Shown: positions 2,560-47,334 of the stretch, piece by piece
Layout of the letters: each line of letters begins with the position of its first letter
How positions within the stretch are numbered: the stretch's first letter is position 1
Assembly (NCBI RefSeq): GCF_004214795.1
Contig: NZ_CP035928.1
Location: 992,001 to 1,056,000 of the forward strand
From: Malaciobacter pacificus
GTDB taxonomy: Bacteria > Campylobacterota > Campylobacteria > Campylobacterales > Arcobacteraceae
DNA length: 64,000 nt
Direction of reading: 5' to 3'
Translations under genes and position numbers: made by a program
The notes under the pieces: model-generated
Seen by the model: the letters and a program-made list of their open reading frames with translations, nothing else
The model's database searches: none
Told to the model about the DNA's origin: nothing

Positions 2560-2596
2560 GTTTGTATGTAAAATAACATTTGTAAAGGTATTTGTG

Positions 2597-3793
2597 ATGT
2601 ATAAACAATTCATAGGAATAGATATTTCTAAAGATAGCTTTGATTTAACACTACTTGAAAATAGTGGTGAAATTAAACTAGAAGTAAAGCTTACAATGAA
2701 TAGAGATGGATTTGATACTTTAGTAGAGTATTTATCCACATATCCTAAAGAAGAGCTTTTAATAGCAATGGAAGCAACTGGTATTTATCATTTACCACTA
2801 TTATCTTTTTTATTAGAAAATAGTTTTAAGTGTGTAGTGATTAATCCAATACTCATAAAGAGTTTTATTGGTTCAACTACCCTTAGAAAAACTAAGAATG
2901 ATAAAAAAGATGCAGCTTCAATTGCTCTATTTAGTTTAAAATCATATCAATCTTTACATCTTGCTAGTACTAATAATATTGAAAATATTAGACCGCTTAT
3001 CCGTGAAAGAGAAAACCTCTCGAAAGATGTAGCAAGATTAAAAACTGAAATAAAAGCTAATTTAGTGCAATTATTCCCTGAATTGTTAAAGAACACAAAT
3101 ATATTTACAAAGAGCATTTTAAATCTGCTCCTTAAAGCTCCTAGCCGTAAAGCAATTAGGAACTTAAGGGAAAAGACCATCCAACGAATCTTAGATGATA
3201 CAAGTGGCAATAAAGTTAAAATTACTGCAAAGGATATATTAGCCTTAGCAAAAACTTCTATCGCCGTATCCGATAAATATCTTGAAAAGGTTTTAACTTC
3301 TAAAATTAGAAGATTAATAGCTATTCAAGATGAATTATCTATTCTAGATTCTGAGTTGGAAAACTCTTTAGAAGATACTGATATAAACAATGATATTGAT
3401 ATAGTACAATCAATACCAGGAATTGGAGCAGTAACTTCTAAAAACTTTATGGTTGAAGTATCCTCTGTTGATAAGTTTAATTCCGTAAAGCAACTATGTG
3501 CTTTTATAGGAATTGACCCATCAGTTAGACAAAGTGGTACTTCAATCAACTATAGGGGCAAAATCTCTAAAAGAGGTAATGCAAACCTTAGAAGAACTAT
3601 TTGGCAAATGGCAATTGGTACTATTCGTTCTTGTGAAAAATTTAAACTCTATTTCTCTAAAAAACGAGAAGAAGGTAAAAAATTCAAACAAGCTGTTATT
3701 GCTGTTGCAAATAAACTTCTAAAAACAATATTTGTAATGTTAAAGAACAAAACCAAATTTGATGAAAATTTAGCTTTAGGTGTTTCCAAATGA
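2597..3793 (+). CDS. IS110-family DEDD transposase/recombinase
   Basis: The N-terminal RuvC-like DEDD domain shows FIGIDISKDSFDL (first Asp), AMEATGIYH (Glu) and KNDKKDA (two Asp); the four acidic residues fall near positions 9, 59, 102 and 105. The C-terminal Transposase_20 domain contains SIPGIGAVTSKNF and IDPSVRQSGTS, with the candidate catalytic serine, followed by ISKRGNANLRR. The length (about 398 residues) is normal and the frame is uninterrupted, so the enzyme is probably intact. ATG 2597 has AAAGG 8 nt upstream; GTG 2594 is a possible alternative. IS110 enzymes act with a bridge RNA from the element's own non-coding end. Confidence 0.95.
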   Translation: MYKQFIGIDISKDSFDLTLLENSGEIKLEVKLTMNRDGFDTLVEYLSTYPKEELLIAMEATGIYHLPLLSFLLENSFKCVVINPILIKSFIGSTTLRKTKNDKKDAASIALFSLKSYQSLHLASTNNIENIRPLIRERENLSKDVARLKTEIKANLVQLFPELLKNTNIFTKSILNLLLKAPSRKAIRNLREKTIQRILDDTSGNKVKITAKDILALAKTSIAVSDKYLEKVLTSKIRRLIAIQDELSILDSELENSLEDTDINNDIDIVQSIPGIGAVTSKNFMVEVSSVDKFNSVKQLCAFIGIDPSVRQSGTSINYRGKISKRGNANLRRTIWQMAIGTIRSCEKFKLYFSKKREEGKKFKQAVIAVANKLLKTIFVMLKNKTKFDENLALGVSK

Positions 3794-6782: not shown

Positions 6783-6814
6783 AAAAGCTAAGAAGTTCTC
6801 TTCTTAGCTTTTTT
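6783..6814 (+). terminator. Rho-independent terminator of acnB
   Basis: A perfect 13-bp stem (6783-6795 AAAAGCTAAGAAG; 6800-6812 CTTCTTAGCTTTT) with a TTCT loop ends in six T. Confidence 0.9.
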
Positions 6815-6910
6815 ATTTTTCCCTTAATTATATTTACCCTTTTAATTCATTACTTATTAATTATAAATAGATTATCATTACCTATAAAAATCAATTATTA
6901 AGGATAAGTT

Positions 6911-7504
6911 ATTTCTAGAACAAAAGAGACTAAAAAAAACAGTATAATTGAAAATGCACTAAAACTATTTTCACAAAAAGGTTTTTATAATACTACTATT
7001 CCAGACATAGCAAAAGCTATGAAAATGAGTGTAGGAAATATGTATAACTATTTTTCTTCAAAAGAAGAGTTAGCAAAATATGCTATAAAATACTCAACAA
7101 ATATTTTAGCTTTAGAACTTAGAGAAATTAACAATATGGAAATTTCTTCAAAAGAAAAAGTATCAATTTTTGTAAATAAATATTTAGAAAATGTGCAAAA
7201 ATCTCCAGAAGTAATTGAGTATTTTCTAAGAGTTTATTTATCAAATAGAGAAGTATTTAAACAAGGTTGTGAAGGATTTTTATGTGTTGGAGAGTTTGTG
7301 ACTGAAGTTATGATTTTACTAGACACTGGAGCTCAAAATAAAGAGTTTAGAGAACAAGAATTCTTCCCTGCATTTGCTATGATAATGGGATGTTTAGGTG
7401 GATTTGCATTTCTTTCAGGTGAAAAAGTATTAGATAAAGATTTATTAGAATACAGTGATGCTGTTGCTGATAATATTTATCGAGCATTAAAGTATGAAGA
7501 ATAA
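6911..7504 (+). CDS. TetR-family transcriptional regulator (ATT start)
   Basis: The product (about 197 residues) has a TetR helix-turn-helix at 10-50: IIENALKLFSQKGFYNTTI, then IPDIAKAMKMSVGNMYNYFSSKEEL. The first ATG (7019) would remove most of this HTH. The frame is open only back to a TAA at 6905. ATT at 6911 is placed 6 nt after AAGGA (6900-6904) and begins xSRTKETKK, exactly where the family Met is expected, so I infer an ATT initiation codon. The C-terminal ligand domain is not recognisable. The gene overlaps the H2-sensor-type small subunit by 11 bp, implying co-translation and a linked role in hydrogenase regulation. Confidence 0.8.
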   Translation: MSRTKETKKNSIIENALKLFSQKGFYNTTIPDIAKAMKMSVGNMYNYFSSKEELAKYAIKYSTNILALELREINNMEISSKEKVSIFVNKYLENVQKSPEVIEYFLRVYLSNREVFKQGCEGFLCVGEFVTEVMILLDTGAQNKEFREQEFFPAFAMIMGCLGGFAFLSGEKVLDKDLLEYSDAVADNIYRALKYEE

Positions 7505-8378
7505 AGAAAAGCCTACAGTCGTATGGTTTCAAGCAATTACTTGTAATGGTAATACTCACTCATTACTAAGTGCTAACTCAAATAGATTAGAGCTTTTTTT
7601 TGATAGCTTTAATCTTATATATCATCCAAGTTTAACTATTGATAAGAGCTTGGATGACATTTTGAACTCTAATTCAAAAATAGATTTTTTATTAGTTGAA
7701 GGCTCTATTTCAAATAATAAGAAATTTTTCCAAATTTCAAATAATTCAACTTATAATCACTTAACTAAACTTATAAAAAAAGCAACTTATGTTATTAGTG
7801 TTGGTTCTTGTGCTTCATTTGGGGGGATTCATGCTATGTTTAAAGAGCATGTTGGAGTTAAAAGTGTTAAAGAGTATTTTGATAAAACTTTATTAAAGCA
7901 TCAAATTATCAATCTTGGAGGTTGTCCTGTTCATCCTGAATGGTTATTACAAACAATGTTTTTGTTAAAAGATTATGGAAGAATTGCATTAGATAATGAA
8001 GGAAGACCAAAAGAGTTATATAGTAGTTTAGTTCACCATGGTTGTACAAGAAATGAGTATTTTGAATGGAAAGTAGAGGGTGAATTTGGAACAAAAGAGG
8101 GATGTTTATTTTATGACCAAGGATGTCGTGGTCCTATGACTCATGGCTCTTGTAATAAAATATTATGGAATGATGTTAGTAGTAAGACTAGAGCTGGAAT
8201 GCCTTGCGTTGGTTGTACAGAACCAACTTTCCCAAGAGATGATATGTTAAATACTAAAAAAAATATAGGAATTCCTTTTGAAGTACCTTTAGGTATTCCA
8301 AAACGTGCATACCTTTCAATCACAGGTGTTGCAAAGACTTTTAAAATAGATAGATTAAATAAAAAGCTAATGGATTAA
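7494..8378 (+). CDS. hupU: [NiFe] hydrogenase small subunit, cytoplasmic sensor (HupU/HoxB-like)
   Basis: The 294-residue Fe-S subunit has no Tat signal and no C-terminal membrane anchor, so it is cytoplasmic. Cluster motifs include CNGN (17-20), VGSCASFGG, LGGCPVHPEW, HHGCTRNEYF, EGCLFYDQGCRGP and MPCVGCTEP. The second proximal-cluster position, normally Cys (CxGC), is Asn20. Together with the large subunit that follows 2 bp downstream it resembles group 2 HupUV/HoxBC H2 sensors. The gene overlaps the end of the TetR gene. A group 2 cytoplasmic uptake enzyme is the main alternative. Confidence 0.8.
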   Translation: MKNKEKPTVVWFQAITCNGNTHSLLSANSNRLELFFDSFNLIYHPSLTIDKSLDDILNSNSKIDFLLVEGSISNNKKFFQISNNSTYNHLTKLIKKATYVISVGSCASFGGIHAMFKEHVGVKSVKEYFDKTLLKHQIINLGGCPVHPEWLLQTMFLLKDYGRIALDNEGRPKELYSSLVHHGCTRNEYFEWKVEGEFGTKEGCLFYDQGCRGPMTHGSCNKILWNDVSSKTRAGMPCVGCTEPTFPRDDMLNTKKNIGIPFEVPLGIPKRAYLSITGVAKTFKIDRLNKKLMD

Positions 8379-8380
8379 AT

Positions 8381-9733
8381 TTGAAAACAGTAGATATAGT
8401 AGAAAGAATTGAAGGTGAAGCAAAACTTAATTGTACTTGGGAAAATGGACTTATAAGTGATGCTAGAATTGATTTTCTAAATTTTAGAGGATTTGAATAT
8501 ATTTTAGAAAATAAATCTCCACTTGATGCTTTAATCTACACTCCAAGAATTTGTGGGATTTGCGGACAAGCTCACCTTAAGGCAACTGTTGATGCTTTAG
8601 AAAATGTATATGAGAATATTGGAGAGAAGTTAGAAATTACTCCAAAAGCCAAACTTCTAAGAGAAATTGGTTTAAATATTGAGATTATAGATTCACACAT
8701 AAAATGGTTTTATATGTTTATTTTACCTGATATTGTTAAACTTGAAACAGAAGATTTAGGAATTTATGAACCAATAAAAGGTAAAAGATGGCTAGAAGCT
8801 ACAAAAGTAGCAAGTGAAACTATAAAGTCTTTGGCAATTATAGGAGGTCAATGGCCTCATACTTCTTATATGATTCCAGGGGGAGTTATGAGTGACCCCA
8901 CTTTATTAGAATTAACTACTATGAGTAATTACTTAGATGGTACTATTAAGTTTTTTGAAAATTCAATTAGTGGAGTTTCAATAGATAAATATTTATCTTT
9001 TTCAAAATATGAAAATATTGAGGATTTAAGAGGAGATTTAAAGTACTTTAGTGATTTATCATTAAAGTATGAGCTAACTAAGTATGGAAAATCATATAGT
9101 CAATTTATAAGTTTAGGGGAAAATACAATTTTTAAAAAAGGTAGATTTAAAAATAAACTTATAAATGGTATTGATTATACAAAAATTGTAGAGAGTGAAA
9201 AAAATACATTTACAATTGAAGATGATAACTCTGAAGATAAACATACTTGGGCTAAATCAGTATTGTATAAAGATGAATTTTATGAGTCAGGACCTTTATC
9301 AAGAGCTATGATATCAAACAATAAGTTTATAAGAAGTATCTATACAAAATATGAAGATTCTATTTATACAAGAGTCTTTGCAAGAATTAATGAAGTAGCT
9401 TTACTATTGATTGAAACAAAAAAACTTATATCAAAGATTGATATTTCTCAAGAGTCATTTTTAGAACCTAAAATTGATTTAAAAAAACTTGATGGTGTTT
9501 ATGGAGAGAGTGCTATTGAAGCAACTAGAGGTTCTTTATTTCACAAAGTATCAATAAATGAAGGTAAAATATTTTCATATAATATAATTACTCCTAGTGT
9601 TTGGAATCTTGGACCTAAGTATAATAATAAATTTGGAGTTGCACAAAATGCAATTATTGGAGCCCCTAGTATTGATATTTCAAAACTTATTCTTCGAAGT
9701 TTTGATGTTTGTTCTGTTTGTACAACACATTAA
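8381..9733 (+). CDS. hupV: [NiFe] hydrogenase large subunit, sensor type (HupV/HoxC-like)
   Basis: The 450-residue Ni-Fe subunit carries RICGICGQAH (Cys58, Cys61) and ends with DVCSVCTTH; His450 is the last residue. There is therefore no C-terminal extension to be cleaved by a HycI/HydD-type protease. Absence of the extension is known for regulatory hydrogenases (HoxC/HupV). It starts with TTG two bases after the small-subunit stop. The subunit is much shorter than HydB (580) and shares only the core motifs with it. The usual partner kinase (HoxJ/HupT) and response regulator are not encoded nearby; a TetR protein is instead. Confidence 0.82.
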   Translation: MKTVDIVERIEGEAKLNCTWENGLISDARIDFLNFRGFEYILENKSPLDALIYTPRICGICGQAHLKATVDALENVYENIGEKLEITPKAKLLREIGLNIEIIDSHIKWFYMFILPDIVKLETEDLGIYEPIKGKRWLEATKVASETIKSLAIIGGQWPHTSYMIPGGVMSDPTLLELTTMSNYLDGTIKFFENSISGVSIDKYLSFSKYENIEDLRGDLKYFSDLSLKYELTKYGKSYSQFISLGENTIFKKGRFKNKLINGIDYTKIVESEKNTFTIEDDNSEDKHTWAKSVLYKDEFYESGPLSRAMISNNKFIRSIYTKYEDSIYTRVFARINEVALLLIETKKLISKIDISQESFLEPKIDLKKLDGVYGESAIEATRGSLFHKVSINEGKIFSYNIITPSVWNLGPKYNNKFGVAQNAIIGAPSIDISKLILRSFDVCSVCTTH

Positions 9734-9963
9734 AATGTTTACTTTTGTAACAAACACATAAAAAAGTTAAAAGTTAACTTTAAATCTCTTTTTTATTAAT
9801 AAAATTTAGAAAACCTAATTATTACCGTACTTACTATTCTATCATACCTTACAATGCTATTTTGGTGCTACATATCATAAATAAATATTAAGTCTTTGTA
9901 AAGTTTACTATTGCTAAGTTAAATTTATATAAATGAATATTCATTTTTTTAGGAGTGTGATTT
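9734..9963. other. 230-bp regulatory region between hupV and hydA
   Basis: No gene is visible. Just after hupV a palindrome AAAGTTAACTTT (within 9765-9782) followed by CTCTTTTTT may be a weak terminator. The distal part contains the hydA promoter region and the 16-bp palindrome described separately. Confidence 0.6.
9931..9946. promoter_or_regulatory. candidate operator: perfect 16-bp palindrome before hydA
   Basis: AAATGAATATTCATTT is a perfect palindrome 17 bp before the hydA start. It overlaps a possible -10 (TTATATAAAT, about 9925-9934). TetR-family operators are typically palindromes of this size, and a TetR gene lies upstream with hupUV, so this is a plausible target. The link is inference. 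Confidence 0.5.
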
Positions 9964-11196
9964 ATGATTGATTCATCTGAAATGGTAAAAAAAGTTTTTA
10001 CCCAAAAATCAGGAAGAGTAGATACGAATAAAGGTGAAGAGTACTATAACTCTTTATTTCAAAAGGCTAAAACTAGATTAGCAACATTAAGAAAACAAGA
10101 ACCCTTACAAGATATTGACTTAATGGATGTTATTGATAGTGAAGGTGTAAATAGAAGAGATTTTATGAAGTGGGTTAGTGCAACAACTGCTACACTTATG
10201 TTACCTCCAATGTTTGCTCCATTAGTAGCAGAAGCAACAGAACTAATGAACAGAGTTCCTGTTATATGGCTAGAACTACAAGACTGTGCTGGTAATACAG
10301 AAGCATTATTAAGAAGTAGTGCGCCAACAGTTGATGATTTATTATTTGATGTGTTAAGTTTAGAATTTCACCATGCTTTAATGGCTGGTGCTGGTCATGA
10401 TGCTGAACATCAATTAGAAGATGCAATTGAACACTTTAAAGGACAGTATTTACTTTTTGTTGAAGGTTCAATTCCTATGGGAATGAATGGAAACTATGGA
10501 ACTATTGGACCATCAGGTGAAACTTTCCATGACCATTTACAAAGAGTTGCAAAAGATTCAGCTGCTGTTGTTGCTGTTGGTACTTGTGCAACATTTGGAG
10601 GAATCCCTGCAGCTGCTCCAAATCCAACTGGTGCAGTTGGAGTTATGGATTTAGTTAAAGGTAAGCCAATTATTAATATTCCAGCATGTCCTGCAAACCC
10701 TGCAAATATGGTAGGTGTTGTATTACATTACGTATTAACTGGTCAAATTCCTGAATTAGATTCATTATTAAGACCTAAATTTGCATTTGGTTATAGAATT
10801 CATGATAACTGTGAAAGACGTGCTCACTTTGATGCTGGTGAATTTGTAGAAGAGTGGGGTGATGAAGGTGCTAAAAACAACTGGTGTTTATATAAAGTTG
10901 GTTGTAAAGGTCCTATGACATTTAATAACTGTTCTATTATTAGATATAACGATGGTGCTAACTGGCCTATTGGAGTTGGAAGAGGATGTATTGGTTGTTC
11001 TGAACCAGATTTCTGGGATAAATATGCATATGAAAGACCAATGGCAAGTGCAAATATTAAAGCGCCAACTGGTGGAGTAGAGAAAACTGTTGATGAATTT
11101 GGACTTGGATTATTAACAGCAACAACAATTGGTATTGGAGTTCATGCAGTTGCAAGTGCAGTTGCAGGAAAAAAATCAGATGAGGGAGAAGAATAA
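9964..11196 (+). CDS. hydA: membrane-bound uptake [NiFe] hydrogenase small subunit
   Basis: The 410-residue electron-transfer subunit is exported by Tat: NRRDFMKWVSA (residues 63-73) precedes a hydrophobic stretch. The pre-sequence before the twin Arg is unusually long (about 62 residues). Fe-S ligands are seen in DCAGNTE (108 Cys, 111 Asn instead of Cys), VGTCATFGG, IPACPANPAN, HDNCERR, WCLYKVGCKGP, FNNCS and GCIGCSEPDFW. A C-terminal hydrophobic helix (FGLGLLTATTIGIGVHAVAS) anchors it in the membrane next to HydC. It forms the periplasmic heterodimer with HydB, encoded 2 bp downstream. AGGAG lies 9 nt before the ATG. Confidence 0.96.
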   Translation: MIDSSEMVKKVFTQKSGRVDTNKGEEYYNSLFQKAKTRLATLRKQEPLQDIDLMDVIDSEGVNRRDFMKWVSATTATLMLPPMFAPLVAEATELMNRVPVIWLELQDCAGNTEALLRSSAPTVDDLLFDVLSLEFHHALMAGAGHDAEHQLEDAIEHFKGQYLLFVEGSIPMGMNGNYGTIGPSGETFHDHLQRVAKDSAAVVAVGTCATFGGIPAAAPNPTGAVGVMDLVKGKPIINIPACPANPANMVGVVLHYVLTGQIPELDSLLRPKFAFGYRIHDNCERRAHFDAGEFVEEWGDEGAKNNWCLYKVGCKGPMTFNNCSIIRYNDGANWPIGVGRGCIGCSEPDFWDKYAYERPMASANIKAPTGGVEKTVDEFGLGLLTATTIGIGVHAVASAVAGKKSDEGEE

Positions 11197-11198
11197 AA

Positions 11199-12941
11199 AT
11201 GGCAAAAAAACACTTAGTAATTGATCCAATTACAAGAATTGAAGGACATCTTAGAATTGAGGCAATCATAGATGAAAACAATGTTGTAACTGATGCATAC
11301 TCTTCTTCTACTATGTTTAGAGGTATTGAGACAATTTTACAAGGAAGAGACCCAAGAGACTGTGGACTACTTGCAATGAGAATTTGTGGTGTTTGTACAG
11401 GTACTCACTATCAAAGATCTATTGAAGCAGTTGAACATGCATTTGGTGTAACTATTCCAAAAAACGCAAGATTAGTTAGAAACTTAATCCAAGGTGCACT
11501 GTATTTACATGACCACGTTGTTCACTTCTATCACTTACATGCACTTGACTGGGTTGATATTACTGAAGCACTTAAAGCTGATCCAAAAGCTGCAGTTGCT
11601 GAAGCTCAAAAATGGGCAGGTGTTTCAGATCAAAGACCTTGGAATGCAAGTGAAGATATTTATGTACAAGTTCAAGAAAGAGTAACTAGATATGTAAAAC
11701 AAGGTAGACTTGGTATTTTTGGAAATGCTTATTGGGGAAGTAAAGGCTTTAAATTAACTCCTGAACAAAACTTAATTGCACTTTCTCACTATTTAGATGC
11801 ACTTGAATTACAAAGGGATATGGCTAAAATGATGGCTATCTTTGGTGGTAAAAACCCGCATCCACAATCATTTGTTGTTGGTGGAGTAACTTGTGTTCAA
11901 GATATTAAAAACCCAGCAAGAATTGCAGAGTTCAAACAGTTATTAAAAAGAAGTAGAAAATTTATTAAAGAAGCATATTTACCAGATGTTTACATGGCTG
12001 GTACTATGTATGCTGATGAAGCACTAGAAGGAATTGGTGGAGGATTAGGAAACTTCATGTCTTTTGGAGACTTTAATTTAGATGATTTACCATTCTATGA
12101 AGCTTCAAAGTTATTCCCATCAGGAATTGTTAAAAATAAAGATTTAACAAAAGTTTATGAAGTTGATCAAACTAAGATTACAGAAGATGTTACTCACGCT
12201 TGGTATGAAGGTAACACAAATTTACACCCATATGATGGTGTAACAAATCCTAATTATACAGGTTTTGGTAAAAAAGAGGGGAATATTGCCTACTTAGATA
12301 CAGAAAATAAATACTCATGGATTAAATCACCTTTATATGATGATGAAAGAATGGAAGTAGGACCACTTGCTAGAATGATTGTAGGTGTTGCTAAAGGTGA
12401 TGAAAGAATCTCTAAATATGTAACAACATTCTTAAAAAATGGTAACTTACCAACAAAAGTTTTATTTTCAACAGTAGGAAGAACAGCAGCAAGAGCTATT
12501 GAAACTGAACTTATGGCTGATGTTATGATGGAATGGACTGATGAGTTAGCATCAAATGTTGCACATGGAGATTTATCTACTTGGACTGAATTTGACTTTG
12601 ATAATGTTGCTGCTGATGCTCAAGGTTTTGGTATGGCAGAAGCTCCAAGAGGTGGTTTAGGGCATTGGGTAAAAATCAAAGATGGTAAAGTAGAAAACTA
12701 TCAAGCAGTAGTTCCATCAACATGGAACGCAGCACCAAGAGATTATAAAGGAAGATTAGGTGCTTATGAAGCATCATTAGTTGGTACAAAAGTAGCAAAT
12801 CCTGATCAACCATTAGAAATCTTAAGAACTGTTCATAGTTTTGATCCTTGTATTGCTTGTGCTGTTCATATTATCGATACTAATGGTAAAGAGTTAGGTG
12901 TTTATAAAGTAGATCCAATAGGAGGAACTAGCCGTGCCTAA
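11199..12941 (+). CDS. hydB: membrane-bound uptake [NiFe] hydrogenase large subunit
   Basis: This catalytic subunit (580 residues) oxidises H2 at the Ni-Fe site. N-terminal ligands are in MRICGVCTGTHYQ (Cys63, Cys66) and C-terminal ligands in SFDPCIACAVH (Cys551, Cys554, His557). The 23 residues after His557 are the pro-peptide expected to be removed by HydD after Ni insertion. The protein has no export signal and travels with HydA by the Tat hitch-hiker route (family knowledge). It overlaps hydC by 8 bp. Confidence 0.97.
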   Translation: MAKKHLVIDPITRIEGHLRIEAIIDENNVVTDAYSSSTMFRGIETILQGRDPRDCGLLAMRICGVCTGTHYQRSIEAVEHAFGVTIPKNARLVRNLIQGALYLHDHVVHFYHLHALDWVDITEALKADPKAAVAEAQKWAGVSDQRPWNASEDIYVQVQERVTRYVKQGRLGIFGNAYWGSKGFKLTPEQNLIALSHYLDALELQRDMAKMMAIFGGKNPHPQSFVVGGVTCVQDIKNPARIAEFKQLLKRSRKFIKEAYLPDVYMAGTMYADEALEGIGGGLGNFMSFGDFNLDDLPFYEASKLFPSGIVKNKDLTKVYEVDQTKITEDVTHAWYEGNTNLHPYDGVTNPNYTGFGKKEGNIAYLDTENKYSWIKSPLYDDERMEVGPLARMIVGVAKGDERISKYVTTFLKNGNLPTKVLFSTVGRTAARAIETELMADVMMEWTDELASNVAHGDLSTWTEFDFDNVAADAQGFGMAEAPRGGLGHWVKIKDGKVENYQAVVPSTWNAAPRDYKGRLGAYEASLVGTKVANPDQPLEILRTVHSFDPCIACAVHIIDTNGKELGVYKVDPIGGTSRA

Positions 12942-13650
12942 AATAAAAAAGGTTAAAAGAATGACTGTAACCATGCGAATTATACACTGGGTAACAGTGT
13001 TAAGCATGATTATTGCAGTTGTAACCGGTCTTTATATAGGTCACCCTTATTACCAAACTTTTATTGCTGATCCTGCTGTGGATAAGTATGTTATGGCTTG
13101 GAATAGATGGTGGCACTTTATTGTTGCAATTATATTTGATGTAACTGCAATTTTAGTTGGGTATTTATACTTCTTCTCAAGGTTTGAAAAGCCTTATAAA
13201 AAGTTAATTCCAAATAAGCAAAACCTTGTGGAGTTTTGGGAAGTTCTTTTAAATCTTATTACTTTAAATAGAAGAAAGAAGTTTGATTCAACTCATAGTG
13301 ATAGTTTTAATACTGTATTTTTTACAGTATTTCACTTACTATTAGTACTTATGTTATTTACAGGCTTACAGTTATATGTACACGCACTAGCTTCTGGTAC
13401 CTCTTCAATTGGTGCTTGGTGGCCTGCTATGCTACATTTAGTTACTGACTGGACACTATATGTATTTGGTGGAAATATGGGTGTTAGATATGTACATCAT
13501 TTCTGTATGTATTTAATTTTAATGTGGGTTATATTTCATATTTACTATCAAGTATGGAGAACAATTTTCTGGCAAGAAGGAGACATCGCTATAGTTGTTG
13601 GTGGTTCTAAATTTGTAAAAGAGAAAGAAGAGGATAAAAAACAGGATTAA
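12934..13650 (+). CDS. hydC: hydrogenase di-haem cytochrome b subunit
   Basis: The 238-residue protein has four main membrane helices (about 22-42, 60-85, 128-150, 185-215) and His residues within them (IIHWVT, WHFIVAI, FHLLLVL, HHFCMYLILMW, IFHIYYQ), as in HyaC/HydC/HupC. It passes electrons from HydA to menaquinone. It starts with GTG inside the end of hydB. A 9-bp hairpin spans its stop codon. Confidence 0.94.
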   Translation: MPKIKKVKRMTVTMRIIHWVTVLSMIIAVVTGLYIGHPYYQTFIADPAVDKYVMAWNRWWHFIVAIIFDVTAILVGYLYFFSRFEKPYKKLIPNKQNLVEFWEVLLNLITLNRRKKFDSTHSDSFNTVFFTVFHLLLVLMLFTGLQLYVHALASGTSSIGAWWPAMLHLVTDWTLYVFGGNMGVRYVHHFCMYLILMWVIFHIYYQVWRTIFWQEGDIAIVVGGSKFVKEKEEDKKQD

Positions 13651-13694: not shown

Positions 13695-14282
13695 ATGAAA
13701 AAAAATATAGTTGTTGGTGTAGGAAATATGCTTTTTAAAGATGAAGGTATTGGTATTTATGCCGCTGAATATATTAGACAAAACTATGAGTTTGAAGGTG
13801 ATATTGAAGTTATTGATGGTGGGACATTAGGGTTTAAACTAATGACATATTTCCAAGAGTATGATAATGTTATTATTTTAGATACTGTGTCTATTGAAGA
13901 TGAAATAGGAGGAATTTATAGATTACCTTCTGATGTTTTATTAGGACTTGGTAATTATAGAAAAACTGCTCATGAAGTAGAAATAGTAGAGATGCTTGAA
14001 ATTGTTTCTGTTTTAGACTCTCACGCAAATGTAACAATTATAGGAATTATTCCAGAAGATATTATTAGTGTTGGTATTGGATTAACGCCTAAGATGGAAG
14101 AAAGATTTGAAGAGTTTACCTTAAATGGAATAAAAGAGATTGAAAGCTTAGGTATAAAAGCTAAGAAAGTAAATAATATTGCAGTTGATGATATTGTAAA
14201 AAGTATGATTGGTAGTTACAATGGAAGTCATTTAAGCAGAATCCCAAATGAGGAAGATTTCACACATGAAACTAGTTTATAA
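13695..14282 (+). CDS. hydD: hydrogenase maturation endopeptidase
   Basis: The 195-residue HycI/HybD/HyaD-family protease cleaves the C-terminal peptide of HydB after nickel insertion. The nickel-sensing residues known from HybD (Glu16, Asp62, His93) match Glu17 (KDEGIG), Asp63 (IILDTV) and His93 (KTAHEVE) here. The C-terminal 35 residues extend past the usual fold. HupV has no cleavable tail, so HydB is the expected substrate. The 3' end overlaps hydE. Confidence 0.95.
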   Translation: MKKNIVVGVGNMLFKDEGIGIYAAEYIRQNYEFEGDIEVIDGGTLGFKLMTYFQEYDNVIILDTVSIEDEIGGIYRLPSDVLLGLGNYRKTAHEVEIVEMLEIVSVLDSHANVTIIGIIPEDIISVGIGLTPKMEERFEEFTLNGIKEIESLGIKAKKVNNIAVDDIVKSMIGSYNGSHLSRIPNEEDFTHETSL

Positions 14283-15798
14283 GATTGAGTTTAACTCAAC
14301 AAACTCTTATTTTAAAAAGATTATTGAGACCTTAATAGCACAAGCAGGAGTTAATGCTGTTTGTAAACAATATGATGGATTTATTTTAATAATAATTGAA
14401 GAAGAGGGCGAAAAGATTGAAGGTTTTTTCAAGTTTTTAGAGACAAGATTACCTGTTTCTATATTTATTGGAAAATCTTATGTAATTGAAGATATTGATG
14501 AAACTATAGAAGAATTAGAAGTTCATGATGTTAAACAAAATTTATCACTACTTACAAATGATGCAATAAAGGAAATTATAGAGAATAATGATATTGATTT
14601 TTTAAATGATATTCTAAAAATATCAAAGGGTGAAGTTTCTAGATTTGAAACTTATAATGGATTAAAAGATCTATTTTTGCCAAATAAAGAGCTTAGAGAA
14701 GAGTTCGAATCAAAAGGTTATGAAGTAAAACTACTTATTACAGATGTAACAAAAGTTCATGATTTATTTGATATAAATATGAAAGAGATGCAACTTTTAT
14801 GCTCAATTGAAAGACCCTTAGTTAAGTTAAAAATTAAACTACTTAAAAATGCTCAAAAAGAGATTTCATCAACAAATTATGTATATGCAAAAATTCCAGA
14901 TGATAAAGAGACAGTTCTTTTCTCACAAGCTTTAAAACAAAAGGGAATTGATTATCTTTTATATGTAAATGATGATGTTTACCAAGATGGAATCAAAGTT
15001 ACATATTTTAATAATGATAATTTAATTATAAGAGGTGAAAAAGGTCTTTTCCCTAAGTTTGATTATGTAGCAAAACAAAAGTTTAATACTTCAAAAGAGT
15101 ATTTTGATACAAATGGAGGAGTTTATAAAGCTATATTAGCACAAAATGCTAAAAGATTAATTCCATCAATTGGTGTTTACTTTTCACTTAAAAGTGATGA
15201 TAGTAATATCTCTATAAATATCCCTTCAAAAGGACTGAAAAAAATTATTGAAATACCAAATATTATCAATGATTTAAATAACTGTATTGAAGAGATAGAA
15301 GAGATTGATGAACACTGCGAAAGATTAATAAACAATTATAAAAAGAAATTTCCAGAGTTTTTAAGAGGTGAAATATCACAAGATACAAATGGATTTGAAT
15401 CAATTATTAATATGTGTGCAAAGGTAATTGGTCTAAAAGATGCAAAAGAGTTTGAAGATTTAGCTTTAAGTGCAGGAATTAAAAGTGGGCTTCAAATTGA
15501 TACAAAACTTGTAAATATTGATGGAGTTAACTATTTAGATTATAGAAGAACTGTTCAATCTATGATGTCATATAAAATGGCAGATGTTGATAATATGACA
15601 CTAGCTTACTCTTTTTATGAAAGTTTTAGTGATTTTATTAATAATTATGCTGATGAAATTGCAAAGGATACAAAAGCAAAAGATATAGTTCTTTGTGGTG
15701 ATATGTTTGCAAACTCTATATTACTTTCTAAAACACATAAAAATTTATCTAAAAACTATAATATAATCTTACCAAAAAGGTATCCTTTAGATTATTAG
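14266..15798 (+). CDS. hydE: hydrogenase accessory protein, HypF-related C-terminus
   Basis: Position after hydABCD matches hydE of Wolinella and Helicobacter, known to be needed for hydrogenase activity but biochemically poorly defined. The C-terminal part (about 385-510) resembles the Kae1-like end of HypF: MCAKVIGLKDAKEFEDLA and IVLCGDMFANSILL parallel HypF's FAGVLQVQSYEGETGLL and IVLSGGVFQNKTLL. It lacks HypF's zinc fingers and the HHYAH metal motif. I start at ATG 14266 because GAGGAAG precedes it; ATG 14248 would lie in hydD without a ribosome site. 510 residues. Confidence 0.8.
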   Translation: MKLVYKIEFNSTNSYFKKIIETLIAQAGVNAVCKQYDGFILIIIEEEGEKIEGFFKFLETRLPVSIFIGKSYVIEDIDETIEELEVHDVKQNLSLLTNDAIKEIIENNDIDFLNDILKISKGEVSRFETYNGLKDLFLPNKELREEFESKGYEVKLLITDVTKVHDLFDINMKEMQLLCSIERPLVKLKIKLLKNAQKEISSTNYVYAKIPDDKETVLFSQALKQKGIDYLLYVNDDVYQDGIKVTYFNNDNLIIRGEKGLFPKFDYVAKQKFNTSKEYFDTNGGVYKAILAQNAKRLIPSIGVYFSLKSDDSNISINIPSKGLKKIIEIPNIINDLNNCIEEIEEIDEHCERLINNYKKKFPEFLRGEISQDTNGFESIINMCAKVIGLKDAKEFEDLALSAGIKSGLQIDTKLVNIDGVNYLDYRRTVQSMMSYKMADVDNMTLAYSFYESFSDFINNYADEIAKDTKAKDIVLCGDMFANSILLSKTHKNLSKNYNIILPKRYPLDY

Positions 15799-23847: not shown

Positions 23848-24618
23848 ATGCCAAGAAGACCAAGAATTGAAATATCAGGTTTCTATCATGTAGTTAATAG
23901 AGGTGTAGAAAGAAGAGTAGTATTCTATGACAGATGCGATTTTGAATATTTTATAATTCTACTTTCAGATGGATGTGAAAAGTTTAATATAACTTTACAT
24001 AATTATTGTCTGATGAATAATCACTATCATTTGTTGATTGAACTAAAAGATGAGAACCTTTCCAAATTTATGAGATACCTTAACTCAACATATGCGATTT
24101 ATTTTAATAAAAAATATAAAAGAGTTGGTCACTTATGGCAAGGAAGATTTAAATCTTGGTATGTAGTAAATGAAGTATATTTATATACATTGATTAGATA
24201 TATTGAACAAAATCCATTAAAAGCAAAACTAGTGGAAAAGATTGAACATTATCCTTATAGTTCGAGTTATTATTTTTTTAAGAAAGAAGAAGTTCCAAAT
24301 TATCTAAGAAATTCTTGGATTGTAAAAACGTATGAAAAAAATATAAAAAGGATAAATGATTTTTTTAGTTTAGATATAGATAGTTTCGATTTAAAAGAAT
24401 TAACAAAAGCTTCAAACTTAGTGGATGCACCAAATATAGATAAAAAAATATATGAAGAAAAACTTATAGAACTTTTTAAAGGTATAACAGATAAGAAAAT
24501 AAGAAATAACTATATATTTGAAGCTTATAATCAAGGCTATTCACAATATATGATTGCTAAGACTATTGGGATATCACAACCAGCTGTGAATGGGATTATA
24601 AAAAGAATGAGTAAATAA
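23848..24618 (+). CDS. REP-associated tyrosine transposase (Y1_Tnp, IS200-like)
   Basis: The 256-residue protein opens with MPRRPRIEISGFYHVVNRG, the typical RAYT N-terminus. The HUH motif is NNHYHLLIE (His-Tyr-His near residue 57-59), and the catalytic tyrosine is probably in RYIEQNP near 120. The C-terminus has an added helix-turn-helix (YSQYMIAKTIGISQPAVNGI). The frame is intact. AAGGAT precedes the ATG by 6 nt. Such enzymes cut single-stranded DNA at REP-like hairpins. Confidence 0.92.
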   Translation: MPRRPRIEISGFYHVVNRGVERRVVFYDRCDFEYFIILLSDGCEKFNITLHNYCLMNNHYHLLIELKDENLSKFMRYLNSTYAIYFNKKYKRVGHLWQGRFKSWYVVNEVYLYTLIRYIEQNPLKAKLVEKIEHYPYSSSYYFFKKEEVPNYLRNSWIVKTYEKNIKRINDFFSLDIDSFDLKELTKASNLVDAPNIDKKIYEEKLIELFKGITDKKIRNNYIFEAYNQGYSQYMIAKTIGISQPAVNGIIKRMSK

Positions 24619-41428: not shown

Positions 41429-42764
41429 GAGATCGTTAAATATTCCGTGTCAAAGTAATTCTGATAGGAGAAATCCTATCACACCTGAACTTAAATTTTA
41501 AGTTCGCTATCCAATCTACCCTCGAAAAATATTGCCAATTGTGAAAGTGTTAAGTTCCAATTCCACATTGGCATATTCCATTTTTTAGTGGCATTTTTCA
41601 TTCCCATATAAAGCAGTTTTAATAGGCTGTTCTCATTTGGAAATGCACCTTTTGTTTTGGTAAGTTTCCTAAATTGTCTATGTACAGATTCAATAATATT
41701 TGTTGTGTATATTACTTTTCTAATCTCTGGTGGATATTTAAAATAAACAGATAGATTTTCCCATTTATTATTCCAAGATTGTAAAACTATTGGATATAGT
41801 TTTCCCCATTTTTCATCTAAAGCTAAAAGTGCATCTTCTGCTGCTTCTTTTGAAACAGCTTGATAAACTGGTTTTAAATCTTTCATAAACTCTTTATGGT
41901 TCTTAGAAGCCACATATCTTATTGAATTTCTAATTTGATGAATAATACACAGTTGTACTTCAGTTTTTGGAAATATAGTTTTTATAGCTTCAGGAAATCC
42001 TTTTAATCCATCAACAGAAGCAATTAAAATATCTTGTAATCCTCTATTGTTTAAATCAGTTAAAACACTAAGCCAGAAGTTTGCTCCTTCACTTTCTGAA
42101 AGGTAAAGTCCTAATATATCTTTTTTACCTTCCATATTTACACCTAAAACTGTGTAAACAGCTTTTGATACATATTTACCACCATCTTTAATTTTATAAT
42201 GTATTGCATCTAACCATACAAATGGATAGATTGAATCTAATGGTCTTGTTTGCCAAGCTTTAACTTTATCAATTATTTTATCTGTAATAGCACTAATTGT
42301 TGCAGTTGAAATAGATACTTGATATATTTCTTCAATATGAGACGATATATCACTGTAGCTCATTCCTAAGCCATACATTGAAAGGATTTTATCTTCTATT
42401 TCATTTGAAATTGTAGTTTGATGTTTTTTTACTATTTGAGGTTCAAATGTTCCATTTCTATCTCTTGGAGTTTCAAGTTCAAAAGAACCATCAGATAAAC
42501 CTTTAATAGTTTTTTTATTTACACCATTCTTTCTATTTCTTTTTCCTGAAAGAACATCATTAGCAATATGTGATTCAACTTCTGCTTCAAGTGCAGCTTC
42601 TGTTAGTTGTTTGATAAGAGGAGCTAAAAGTCCATCTTTACCAGTAAGATTTTTACCATTTTTAAATTTTTCTAAAACTTCATTGAAGTCAAAGTTAATT
42701 CTCTCTTCCATTGTCAATCCTTGATATTATTTTATCAGATTGACACGGAATTTCTAACACTCCC
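41429..42764 (-). mobile_element. IS256-family insertion sequence with 8-bp target duplication
   Basis: The 1336-bp element is flanked by TATTTGAT at 41421-41428 and 42765-42772. Imperfect 24-bp terminal repeats (GAGATCGTTAAATATTCCGT at left; GGGAGTGTTAGAAATTCCGT in the reversed right end, then GTCA) match at 19 of 24 positions. It carries one transposase gene and interrupts the 3' end of the kinase gene. Confidence 0.92.
41491..42717 (-). CDS. IS256-family DDE transposase
   Basis: The 408-residue enzyme has the IS256 pattern: KDGLLAPLIKQLTEAALEAE near the N-terminus, the DDE residues in FVWLDAIHYKI, ASVDGLKGFPEAI and TNIIESVHRQFRK, and the LCIIHQIRNSIRYV motif. The frame is intact and normal in length, so the element may be active. 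Confidence 0.96.
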   Translation of the reverse strand: MTMEERINFDFNEVLEKFKNGKNLTGKDGLLAPLIKQLTEAALEAEVESHIANDVLSGKRNRKNGVNKKTIKGLSDGSFELETPRDRNGTFEPQIVKKHQTTISNEIEDKILSMYGLGMSYSDISSHIEEIYQVSISTATISAITDKIIDKVKAWQTRPLDSIYPFVWLDAIHYKIKDGGKYVSKAVYTVLGVNMEGKKDILGLYLSESEGANFWLSVLTDLNNRGLQDILIASVDGLKGFPEAIKTIFPKTEVQLCIIHQIRNSIRYVASKNHKEFMKDLKPVYQAVSKEAAEDALLALDEKWGKLYPIVLQSWNNKWENLSVYFKYPPEIRKVIYTTNIIESVHRQFRKLTKTKGAFPNENSLLKLLYMGMKNATKKWNMPMWNWNLTLSQLAIFFEGRLDSELKI

Positions 42765-45700
42765 TATTTGATTCATTTTCATAAATAAACTCTTCATTAT
42801 ATACATTTATTTCCCCATGAAATTGCTTTGTTATAATCTGATGAGTCATATATAAACCTAATCCTGTACCAACTGATTGGTGCTTTGTTGTAAAATAAGG
42901 TTCAAATATCTTTTCCATAAGATCTTTTTTTATCCCTCCAGCATTATCTTTTAGTAAAATTGAGATTCTATTTTCATTTTTTTCTAAAGATACATAAAAC
43001 AGTTTAGCATTTTGATTTTGTTCTTTTAAAGCATCAATTGCATTATTATAAATATTTATCAAAGCTTGAATAAGTAGATTTTCGTTTCCTTCTATGTAAA
43101 TATCATCTTTTATATCTTTTTTTACGATGATAAAATTATTATTAAAAGAATCAATTGTTAAATCTTCAACTTTTAATAATGTCTTTTTTAAGTTAAACTC
43201 TTTTCTATCAGATATATCTCCCCTAAAAAAGTTTCTAAAATCATCGATTGTTTTTGATAAGTGTTGCGTGTGTTCATTTATTTTATCTAAAGTTGGAATT
43301 ATATCCTCTTTAGATATTTTATTGCCAATTTCAAGTGTAAATTTAAGTCCCGTAGATGCAGTTGATATTACAGAAAGTGGTTGTCTCCATTGATGAGCAA
43401 TATTTCCAATCATTTCACCTACAGCAGAAGTCCTAGCTTGTTGTAATAGCATCTTTTCTTGTTGTTTTTGAATTGTAATATCTGAAAAAATACCTATATA
43501 GTTCTCTATTTCATTGTTTGAGTTTCTAATTATATTGATTGATAATAACTCTTCATATAGGTTACCATTTTTATCTTTATTGATTATTTCACCTACCCAA
43601 AACCCATTTTCTATTAAATTTTTCCACATATTTTCATAAAAAATTTTATCTTGTTTATTTGATTTTAATATTGATGGATTTTCTCCAAGAATCTCTTTTA
43701 AACTATAACCTGTAGTTTTAGTAAAAGCAGGATTTATATTTATTATTTGATTTTTCTTATTTGTTATCATAATTCCATCACGTGTATTTTCAAATACTAA
43801 TAAAGCCTGCTTTATACTTTTCTCATATAACTTATTAGCATTTATATCTTGAATTACCGAAATAAAATAGTTTGGTTCACCATTCTCTTTTAAAATAAGT
43901 GTCACTGTTAGCTTTATCCATACTAAAGAGTTATCTTTTTTTATGTATCTCTTTTCCATTTCATAAGAGTCAATCTCTTTTTGTATCATTTTACTAACAT
44001 ATGTTAAATCTTCATCTAAATCTTTATAGTAAGTTATATCTTGAAAAGTTGATTTTAAAAGCTCATCTTTTTCATAACCTAATATTTGACACAATTTATC
44101 ATTAACTTCTAACCAGTGACCATCTAATGAAACTCTTGCAATCCCAACTCCTGAATGATGAAAAAACTTCTTTAGTTTAGCTTCACTTTCTCTTATTTTT
44201 ATATCTTTATTTTTTTGTTCTGTAATGTCGCTAAAAACACCTATATAGTTAAGAATACTATTATTTTTATCATAAATTGTATTTATTGTAAGCCACTCAG
44301 TATATAAAATTCCATTTTTATCTTTATTTGTTACTTCTCCTTCCCAGTGACCTGCTGTTCTTATTTTTTCCCACATATTTTCATAAAATTTTTTTGAATG
44401 TATACTTGATTTTAATATACTAGTCTTGATACCTAGTATCTCTTCTTTTGTATAACCAGTAATTTTTGTAAAAGCATTATTAACATCTATTATTTTTGTA
44501 TCTTTATTTGTAATTATAATACCATCATGAGTATTACTAAAAACAGAATAAGCTTGTTTTAATTTCTTTTCTCTATTTTTTCTTTGAGTTATATCTTGAC
44601 CTATTATTATGTAATTATGTTCATTATTTTTACTTATTGTATATATATTTAAATCAATAATTGCTTCTTCATTGTTTGAATTTAAAGCTATTATTTCTTT
44701 TGAAATATCTTTTTTTAATGGACCAATCAAAAAAGAGTTTTTGAAAAAAACTTTTTCAGCATCTCTCCAGCATTTTAAATCCCAAATATTTTTTTCTTTT
44801 ACTTCATTAATATTTTGATTTAAGAAAATTAAAGCTGTTTTATTTATATCAATTATTTTTCCTCTTTCATCTAAAACGGCAGCTAAAAAATGAGAATCTT
44901 CAAATAAAAGTTTAAATTTTTCTTGTTCTTGAGATTGTTTTTTATGAAGAATTATCTCATTTTCTTTTCCTTTATTATAAAGATAGAATAAATATAAAGA
45001 TACGATTATGGTAATTATAATAGTCATGATAGTTATAATAAAAAATTCATACTCTTTTTTATTCCAATTACTCATACTCTTTTCATAATCAAATTTTACA
45101 GCTAATGTAATAGGAAAATTATCTGTAAGTGTGTAGGTTAAAATATATTTTTTTCCATCAATAGTGTCAACTTTGGTTATTTCATTTTTTTCAAATGTCT
45201 TTTCAAGTAAATCTTGTTCTTTTATTTTTGTTCCAATTATTTTTGAATCATCAGTAGATAATAGTAGTATTCCATCTAGTCTAATTAATTCAAAAGTTAC
45301 ATAATCTGAATCAATACTATTTAAAAATCTATTTATAAAATAGTCATTATTTAGATTTATAACTACATTATAATCACTATTTTTACTTAAGATAGTTTTT
45401 GAAATAGGTATAAAAAAAGTTTCATTTTTGCTGATTTTTTCTTCATTTGTATATACATCATCACCATTTATAAAATCTCTACCTATCCATGGTGTTGATA
45501 TTTTTAATATATTTTCTTCAAATATAGGATTTGGGAAAAGATTTAGATTTTTGATTACTAAGTTAATATTTTCAAGGTTAGAACTATAAATAATCGTGTC
45601 ATTTTTTAATATATTGATAGATCTAATTTGTGGATAGTTTTTTTGCATATCAACTAATCTTCTATTTATACTTGTAAGTGGCATAGATATATCAATAATT

Positions 45701-45867
45701 GAGTGGATATTATTTATAATTTGTTCAATATTTGATAAGTCTTGATTTAACTCTTTTGAAAATGCTTTTGCATTTAATTTAGAGATTTTTATGTAATTAT
45801 TTTCAGCTTCTTCTTTAAATAAGGATAAAGCTTTAACTATAGAGCCGCTTGCAAATTCCACCATCAT
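42754..45867 (-). pseudogene. PAS-rich sensor histidine kinase, both ends altered by insertion sequences
   Basis: The main body encodes a dCache-like extracellular domain (about 11-270), a membrane helix (about 275-297), four PAS domains (about 315-430, 440-550, 560-680, 690-800), and a HisKA-type core: QARTSAVGEMIGNIAHQWRQ with the phospho-His, N-box NIYNNAIDAL, and GTGLGLYMTHQII. The apparent start and first ten codons come from the IS5-like end, replacing the first membrane helix. The last codons (REC, stop) come from the IS256 end. PAS 2 and PAS 4 are near repeats (FTKITGYTKEEILG / FTKTTGYSLKEILG). The restored protein would be about 1055 residues. Confidence 0.85.
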
Positions 45868-47334
45868 AAACTAGTGAATTTGTAAACCTACTAAGCTTAT
45901 CAAGCAGATCTTTTAAACTTTTAATCATTTTACCGCTTTATGGGTCAATTTTAGATAAAAAACTATTATTGGGTGCGTGCTTGATGGTTGAGTTTTAAAA
46001 ATGGCTAATTTTTAGTGTTTTTAGCTAAAAGTTATGTTACCAGTTTCAAACTCTGATGAATACAAACTGATAAAATACCAAATGCTAAAACAGAAGCTAC
46101 TTTTGTAGCTCCTTTATAATAAATATTACTGCATCCAAAGTCTTCTTTGAGGTATTTATTGACTCTCTCAACCATACTTCTTTGGTTATAGTGATGGGTA
46201 TCTAAACTTTGAGTAAGGTTTAGAATTTTAAATTTCTTTTTTTCATCTTTTATAAGTTGAATTTTTCCTTTTAACTCTTTGGAGTTCTTCGGATTGATAT
46301 CAATAAGCGGTCTATGATTTAGTTTTTTGGAAAAATCTCTGATAATATTGCTGTCGTATCCTGCATCTTGTAAGTCATAAAGATATGATACTTTTTTGCT
46401 TGTCTCGTTTATAAGAGGAAGTGCTACTGAGCTATCATGAACATTTGCCCCTGAATAAATAGCAGTAATAGGGATATCTCCATCTACTACACTGATATGG
46501 AGTTTCCCTCCTATCCATGTTTCAAAGTTGCCTTTGGAATTCTGTTTTCTTCCAACTCCACACTGCGTTGATACCAAAGATAGCATCTGCTTTGTGGTTT
46601 TCATATCTTCTTGTTGCTGCAAGATACTGGGTGTTTTAGGCTCTCTTGTTTCACCTTTTTTAGGTCGTCCTCTTCTTTTTGGTTTAAACTTTTCTTTTTC
46701 AACTTTTACAGGTTTTTCTCTCAGTGGTATTTTTGTTGCATCACTTGCATTATAAAAAAAGAGTGTATCCCTTAGATACTCCTTCACAAACTGCTCATGC
46801 GTCTTTTGTGCAATTTTAAGCTCACTGAGCTCCTTAAAGACTCTACTAAATTTAGACTCACTTGGAATATCGTTTTTATATCTCCACCCACACAAGATCC
46901 TCAGCGTTCTATCACTATGAAGTCTATCGATAAGGTCTCTGGTTGTTTGGATATTGTAAACACTCTTTGCAATAAATGCTCGTGCAATCTCTTCTCTATG
47001 CTTTGGAGTGTTTGTAATAGATACGACAGTGATATTTTTTTCAATCGCAGCAAAGTCTAATATCTTAATAAGCTTTTGCTCTTTATTTGACAACTCTTCT
47101 AATTGAAGCTCTCTTTTCAAAGAAGGAAAAAGTGAATTTTCAAGATTTAAAACCTTAGTCCACATTTTAGATAGACTTGAAGATATTTTTGGTAGAATAA
47201 TTTCCATAAGTTGAATCGCTCTTCTGTTAAATTTTTGTAGTAAAAAATTATAACTTATCTGAAGTTTGATTCAACTTTTTAAAATTTAAATCAGCTTAAA
47301 TTACGGGTTGTTTTTTATAATCTGCAAGTGGCTC
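45842..47334 (-). mobile_element. IS5-like insertion sequence with 4-bp target duplication
   Basis: Ends GAGCCGCTTGCAAATT (45842-45857) and, reversed, GAGCCACTTGCAGATT (47334-47319) match at 14 of 16 positions. TATA flanks it at 45838-45841 and 47335-47338. The 1493-bp element contains one DDE transposase gene. Removing it restores the kinase frame across FII-VKALSLF. Confidence 0.85.
46032..47207 (-). CDS. DDE (IS4/IS5-superfamily) transposase
   Basis: The 391-residue protein has an N-terminal helical DUF-like region (LHSDRTLRILCGW, SESKFSRVFKEL), a basic linker (KPKRRGRPKKG), and a DDE_Tnp_1 core: HISVVDGDIPITAIYSGANVHDS (first Asp region), YLYDLQDAGYDS (second Asp) and NQRSMVERVNKYLKEDFG (Glu). 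The frame is intact. Confidence 0.92.
   Translation of the reverse strand: MEIILPKISSSLSKMWTKVLNLENSLFPSLKRELQLEELSNKEQKLIKILDFAAIEKNITVVSITNTPKHREEIARAFIAKSVYNIQTTRDLIDRLHSDRTLRILCGWRYKNDIPSESKFSRVFKELSELKIAQKTHEQFVKEYLRDTLFFYNASDATKIPLREKPVKVEKEKFKPKRRGRPKKGETREPKTPSILQQQEDMKTTKQMLSLVSTQCGVGRKQNSKGNFETWIGGKLHISVVDGDIPITAIYSGANVHDSSVALPLINETSKKVSYLYDLQDAGYDSNIIRDFSKKLNHRPLIDINPKNSKELKGKIQLIKDEKKKFKILNLTQSLDTHHYNQRSMVERVNKYLKEDFGCSNIYYKGATKVASVLAFGILSVCIHQSLKLVT

Follow-up and report, generated by a model that had tools for sequence, protein, structure and literature searches.

A conserved tetR-hupU-hupV operon in Malaciobacter pacificus and a predicted operator before hydA: a proposed hydrogen-responsive switch

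The tetR-hupUV locus and its conservation

The window, the whole 64,000-nt stretch of Malaciobacter pacificus (Arcobacteraceae) DNA analysed here, carries a tetR-family gene, the genes hupU and hupV and, downstream, the uptake hydrogenase genes hydABC (Table 1). An earlier sequence-only reading had reported that tetR overlaps hupU by 11 nt (6911-7504 against 7494-8378) and that hupV follows 2 nt after hupU (8378 to 8381); both were confirmed, hupV having a TTG start. Its term "fused" stands for the overlapping genes and not for their products, there being no fusion protein. The terminator after acnB sets tetR-hupUV apart from the upstream gene, and a terminator looked for between hupV and hydA was not found. 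Transposases of IS110, IS200, Mutator and DDE types surround the hyd/hyp region (window positions 2594-3793, 23848-24618, 41491-42717, and 46032-47207).

Table 1. Features of the tetR-hupUV-hyd region (window coordinates)
Feature	Position	Strand	Remarks
Rho-independent-type terminator after acnB	6783..6812	+	13-bp stem, then T-rich tail
Shine-Dalgarno (AAGGA) of tetR	6900..6904	+	Same position in relatives
tetR-family regulator, 197 aa, ATT start	6911..7504	+	TetR_N Pfam, start-codon comparison, AlphaFold2 model, FadR-like match
Codons for TetR C120...C125 (CEGFLC), alpha6-alpha7 loop	7268..7285	+	
hupU, cytoplasmic [NiFe] hydrogenase small subunit, conserved C-terminal tail	7494..8378	+	
hupV, [NiFe] hydrogenase large subunit, TTG start, CxxCTTH end	8381..9733	+	
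Predicted operator palindrome AAATGAATATTCATTT	9931..9946	.	Conserved core 9932-9945, AATGA-NYRN-TCATT
hydA, Tat-exported small subunit of uptake hydrogenase, proposed target	9964..11196	+	
hydB, large subunit	11199..12941	+	
hydC, cytochrome b	12934..13650	+	
hydD, maturation protease	13695..14282	+	
hydE-like, HypF C-terminal-like domain	14248..15798	+	

Among 151 genomes, a HupU orthologue was present in 81, TetR in 83, and both in 80; the single genome with HupU and no TetR was truncated at a contig end, and the three with TetR and no HupU were fragmented or incomplete assemblies. The synteny of tetR-hupUV suggested for checking across Arcobacteraceae is conserved there and in nine further families, giving ten families of Campylobacterales in which tetR-hupU-hupV is kept, and at almost every locus the three genes overlap or abut. 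Plasmid-borne copies occur in Sulfurimonas paralvinellae and Sulfurovum mangrovi. In a phylum-wide sample, every genome among the matches listed belonged to the same order, and a HupV scan of genome contigs matched only Arcobacteraceae or other Campylobacterota loci. Mean pairwise identity was highest for TetR (68%; HupU, 59%; HupV, 52%), and TetR and HupU distances were correlated (0.94).

Some loci depart from this layout. One Halarcobacter-related group (L043, L045, L046, L048, and L054) carries an opposite-strand gene between hupU and hupV, encoding a BTLCP-type transglutaminase-like cysteine protease (Pfam, on the L043 copy), and hupU of L045 (G018) contains an in-frame TAG, reflecting decay or an assembly error. 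Locus L093 (842-7679; genome C1, about 28.8-35.7 kb) carries another [NiFe] hydrogenase, its small subunit having an N-terminal BFD [2Fe-2S] domain, with a FAD/NAD(P)-oxidoreductase-like piece upstream and transposase-like genes between that piece and the BFD-type small subunit; the corresponding frame in relatives is 810-846 aa long.

The regulator and the operator before hydA

TetR matched TetR_N (Pfam, residues 12-56, E 1.5e-15) and was modelled with AlphaFold2 as an all-helical TetR fold (mean pLDDT, 91.5), the closest structures being FadR-type TetRs (TM-score, about 0.8). Bacillus subtilis FadR (PDB 3whb) is alike in predicted fold and in having a palindromic operator near the promoter, a predicted one in the case of the window; the window TetR is only 20% identical to it and differs in its invariant C120/C125 loop and its hydrogenase partner. 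In the window and 14 relatives (L033-L042, L044, L047, L052, and L059), tetR starts with ATT or ATA behind AAGG at constant spacing, and none of the 15 has an ATG, GTG or TTG upstream of residue 12. If only ATG is allowed as a start, the gene reads from 7019, within the HTH, part of which is then lost, so the gene may be easily missed. This non-canonical start with a good Shine-Dalgarno may keep the repressor level low and mislead gene callers.

The palindrome that the sequence-only reading had placed 17 bp 5′ of the hydA ATG (9964) is there and is perfect over 16 bp (AAATGAATATTCATTT), with the conserved part now refined to a 14-bp core. Conservation before hydA, proposed at the time as a check, was borne out: in each of the ten families sampled, the core keeps its location. 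Allowing up to one mismatch, AATGA-NYRN-TCATT was found at 98/105 hydA promoters in genomes with TetR against 1/27 in genomes without it (Fisher, 4e-20; uncorrected for phylogeny, with the motif derived from the TetR-positive set). Within a single genus (g11), the operator was present in 7/7 genomes with TetR and 0/9 without, so regulator and operator are present or lost together. In genomes with a second hydA paralogue (about 51-55% identical), the operator lies upstream of that copy too, and at two loci it (L097 and L157) accompanies hydA although hydA is not adjacent to tetR. The centre is pyrimidine-purine in 74/75 exact sites. The 2.66-Mb genome has a single AATGANYRNTCATT and 17 matches to AATGANNNNTCATT, of which only the one at hydA has a YR centre. 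That TetR recognises this motif before hydA is well supported as a prediction from regulator-operator pairing, without binding data.

Two other descriptions of the site were set aside: a chance palindrome was ruled out by conservation and by the TetR-negative genomes as a control, and half-sites judged by eye to be either 0 or 4 nt apart were replaced by one motif with a 4-nt centre. Most proximal operators end 6-26 bp 5′ of the start codon, at or just past the −10 region, and directly 5′ of the operator −10-like hexamers are over-represented (31/51, against 18.5 expected from shuffles), which together point to a repressor. A constant spacing between the −10 hexamer and the operator was rejected, as the spacing varies.

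An operator-like site was also found upstream of tetR in a subset of loci, mostly 66-75 bp before the gene, and reached significance (p<0.05) at just 26/66 tetR promoters; general tetR autoregulation was rejected. No significant operator was found at the window tetR promoter, in keeping with autoregulation that is not general.

HupUV as a sensor-type hydrogenase and its link to TetR

HupU and HupV are [NiFe] small and large subunits, and the two sensor traits ascribed to them earlier held: HupU has neither a Tat leader nor a C-terminal anchor, and HupV ends at the ligand His (...CSVCTTH; compare HoxC, ...CMVCTVH) with no protease-cleaved tail. HupV sequences of the order stop directly after the last CxxC motif (CxxC plus three residues). 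The gas-channel positions of the window HupV are Ile60 and Phe113, matching Ile/Phe in HoxC; the same positions are Val and Leu in the catalytic HydB and HoxG. HupV representatives from other families retain the Ile, with Thr or Ser in place of the Phe. HupU shares 31% identity with HoxB and has a shorter C-terminal end, where a tail (KRAYLSITGVAKTFKIDRLNKKL) is well conserved.

The group 2b sensors HoxBC/HupUV (e.g., Cupriavidus necator) are, like the window HupUV, cytoplasmic [NiFe] dimers without Tat leader or C-terminal extension, and both have the Ile and Phe gas channel and are linked to an uptake hydrogenase operon. They differ in output: where those systems run through HoxBC-HoxJ-HoxA or HupUV-HupT-HupR, the window has a TetR gene overlapping hupU and no recognised HoxJ orthologue. 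HydDB group 2c (diguanylate cyclase-linked, putative sensor) likewise represents proposed cytoplasmic group 2 H2 sensing with another output, which in the window would be a DNA-binding repressor. Campylobacterota enzymes of the HupUV kind, including huaSL of Arcobacter butzleri, have been placed in the Aquificae-type group 2d (PMC12286921); our assignment follows that paper and PMC5037454 only, without clustering against 2d references. HydDB gives group 2d as "Unresolved role. May generate reductant for carbon fixation or have a regulatory role" (PMC5037454), Sulfurimonas work also terms the role of the group 2 hydrogenase unresolved (PMC7952632), and a Nautilia group 2 hydrogenase was termed H2-sensing from phylogeny (PMC2628731). 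A TetR partner with an operator at hydA is undescribed for group 2d in the papers found, and no account of a TetR-HupUV-operator system or of TetR-hydrogenase H2 sensing was found in the open literature and the few subscription journals covered.

TetR could instead be a local repressor of hupUV (hupSL), with HupUV an enzyme, supplying for example reductant for carbon fixation, and no sensor. The authors working on Sulfurospirillum multivorans, where tetR precedes hupSL, suggested such a repressor (PMC5357620), HydDB allows reductant supply as well as regulation, and the operator-like sites before some tetR genes would suit it. However, the operator is far steadier before hydA than before tetR, the tetR-hupUV operon encodes no electron-acceptor subunit, and S. 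multivorans hupL was untranscribed in all conditions tested (PMC5357620). We regard this explanation as quite unlikely.

The absence of a HoxJ/HupT kinase, claimed from the sequence alone, holds for the operon, and no HoxJ orthologue was recognised genome-wide; generic kinases remain. A C. necator HoxJ query returned about 40 matches in the genome, all of them generic histidine kinases, the best at 25% identity (residues 29-439, in an 803-aa frame). One PAS histidine kinase lies in the window (42754-45867, 1037 aa; 26% identity to HoxJ over part of the kinase core), downstream of hypA and beside a transposase. The group 2b criterion of a cognate PAS kinase and response regulator is unmet (the response regulator was outside the search). 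A kinase acting on hydA is unlikely, but with so many generic matches it cannot be excluded. These matches and the PAS kinase leave room for a HoxJ/HupT-like kinase elsewhere that relays the HupUV signal, with TetR a separate second input; yet none of the matches is clearly orthologous to HoxJ or has a link to hupUV, and tetR-hupUV is kept in ten families with no conserved adjacent kinase among the genes scored, and we hold such a relay to be very improbable.

TetR C120 and C125, in the alpha6-alpha7 loop of the AlphaFold2 model, are invariant in 63/63 HupUV-linked TetRs, and neither occurs in eight TetRs that belong to the same subfamily but lack a HupUV link (roughly 44-54% identity), whose neighbours are modE-like, pstS-like, coo-type, hypF or other genes. 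This restriction ties the cysteines to the hydrogenase. A redox or metal site is thereby suggested but not proven; the pair could be structural or Zn-binding instead. As a pattern among aligned sequences, it is indirect evidence for TetR-HupUV coupling, and the interaction itself is inferred. A further TetR paralogue within a hyd locus (L175b) retains a shifted cysteine pair. TetR paralogues at L175-L182, including a tandem pair at L175, lie near coo-type/group 4, modE-molybdate-like, pstS-like or hypF genes.

Alternatively, TetR might control hydA but sense a small molecule or general redox state, leaving HupUV as a co-regulated passenger or indirect modulator. TetR proteins usually bind ligands, the nearest structures are acyl-CoA-responsive FadR types, and TetR paralogues adjoin modE-like, pstS-like or coo-type genes. 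Set against this are the near-strict linkage and overlap of tetR with hupU and a cysteine pair found in HupUV-linked TetRs and not in unlinked ones. We consider this explanation unlikely, while keeping it in view.

A proposed kinase-free switch over hydABC

We propose that tetR-hupU-hupV is a kinase-free, H2-responsive switch over hydABC, a reading we favour as probable with considerable room for error. A TetR dimer would bind AATGA-NYRN-TCATT just 5′ of hydA (step 1) and act as a repressor, as inferred from the operator position (step 2). HupUV, a cytoplasmic group-2d-type [NiFe] hydrogenase needing no C-terminal processing, would signal H2 to TetR, and H2 would relieve the repression of hydABC (step 3). 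Its role as the H2 input rests on the operon structure, co-inheritance, and the sensor-like features of HupUV. The HupU Fe-S chain may then carry electrons from H2 to TetR C120/C125, either a dithiol-disulfide or a metal/Fe-S centre, altering DNA binding (step 4).

The direct TetR-HupUV switch on hydABC put forward in the sequence-only reading is supported by synteny and operator conservation; control by H2 via HupUV is only inferred. The redox link through the cysteines is a hypothesis. That HupUV passes electrons directly onto a TetR cysteine (possibly Fe-S) centre, making a gas sensor without kinase, nucleotide or small-molecule ligand, is possible but doubtful.

Published expression data point both ways. 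With H2, both hynAB sets of A. butzleri hDNRA1 rose 2.3-6.2 fold and huaSL (group 2d) went down, in a comparison confounded by a change of electron donor (PMC12286921); by analogy, the hynAB induction fits H2 control of hydABC. S. multivorans hydB was constitutive, with no rise with H2 (PMC5357620), an analogy that speaks against H2 control and calls for caution; with hupL untranscribed there, the repressor in that organism may be silent. No binding, interaction or H2-response data exist for this TetR-HupUV system, which counts against the proposal.

If correct, the switch would be an undescribed route of H2 sensing in which a simple TetR repressor replaces a two-component kinase relay. It would assign a function to the 2d-type group 2 hydrogenases of many H2-oxidising Campylobacterales and account for the matching of the uptake hydrogenase to H2 where no kinase relay is recognised. 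Should the cysteine link prove true as well, one repressor and one 14-bp operator would make a compact H2-responsive promoter of use in biosensors.
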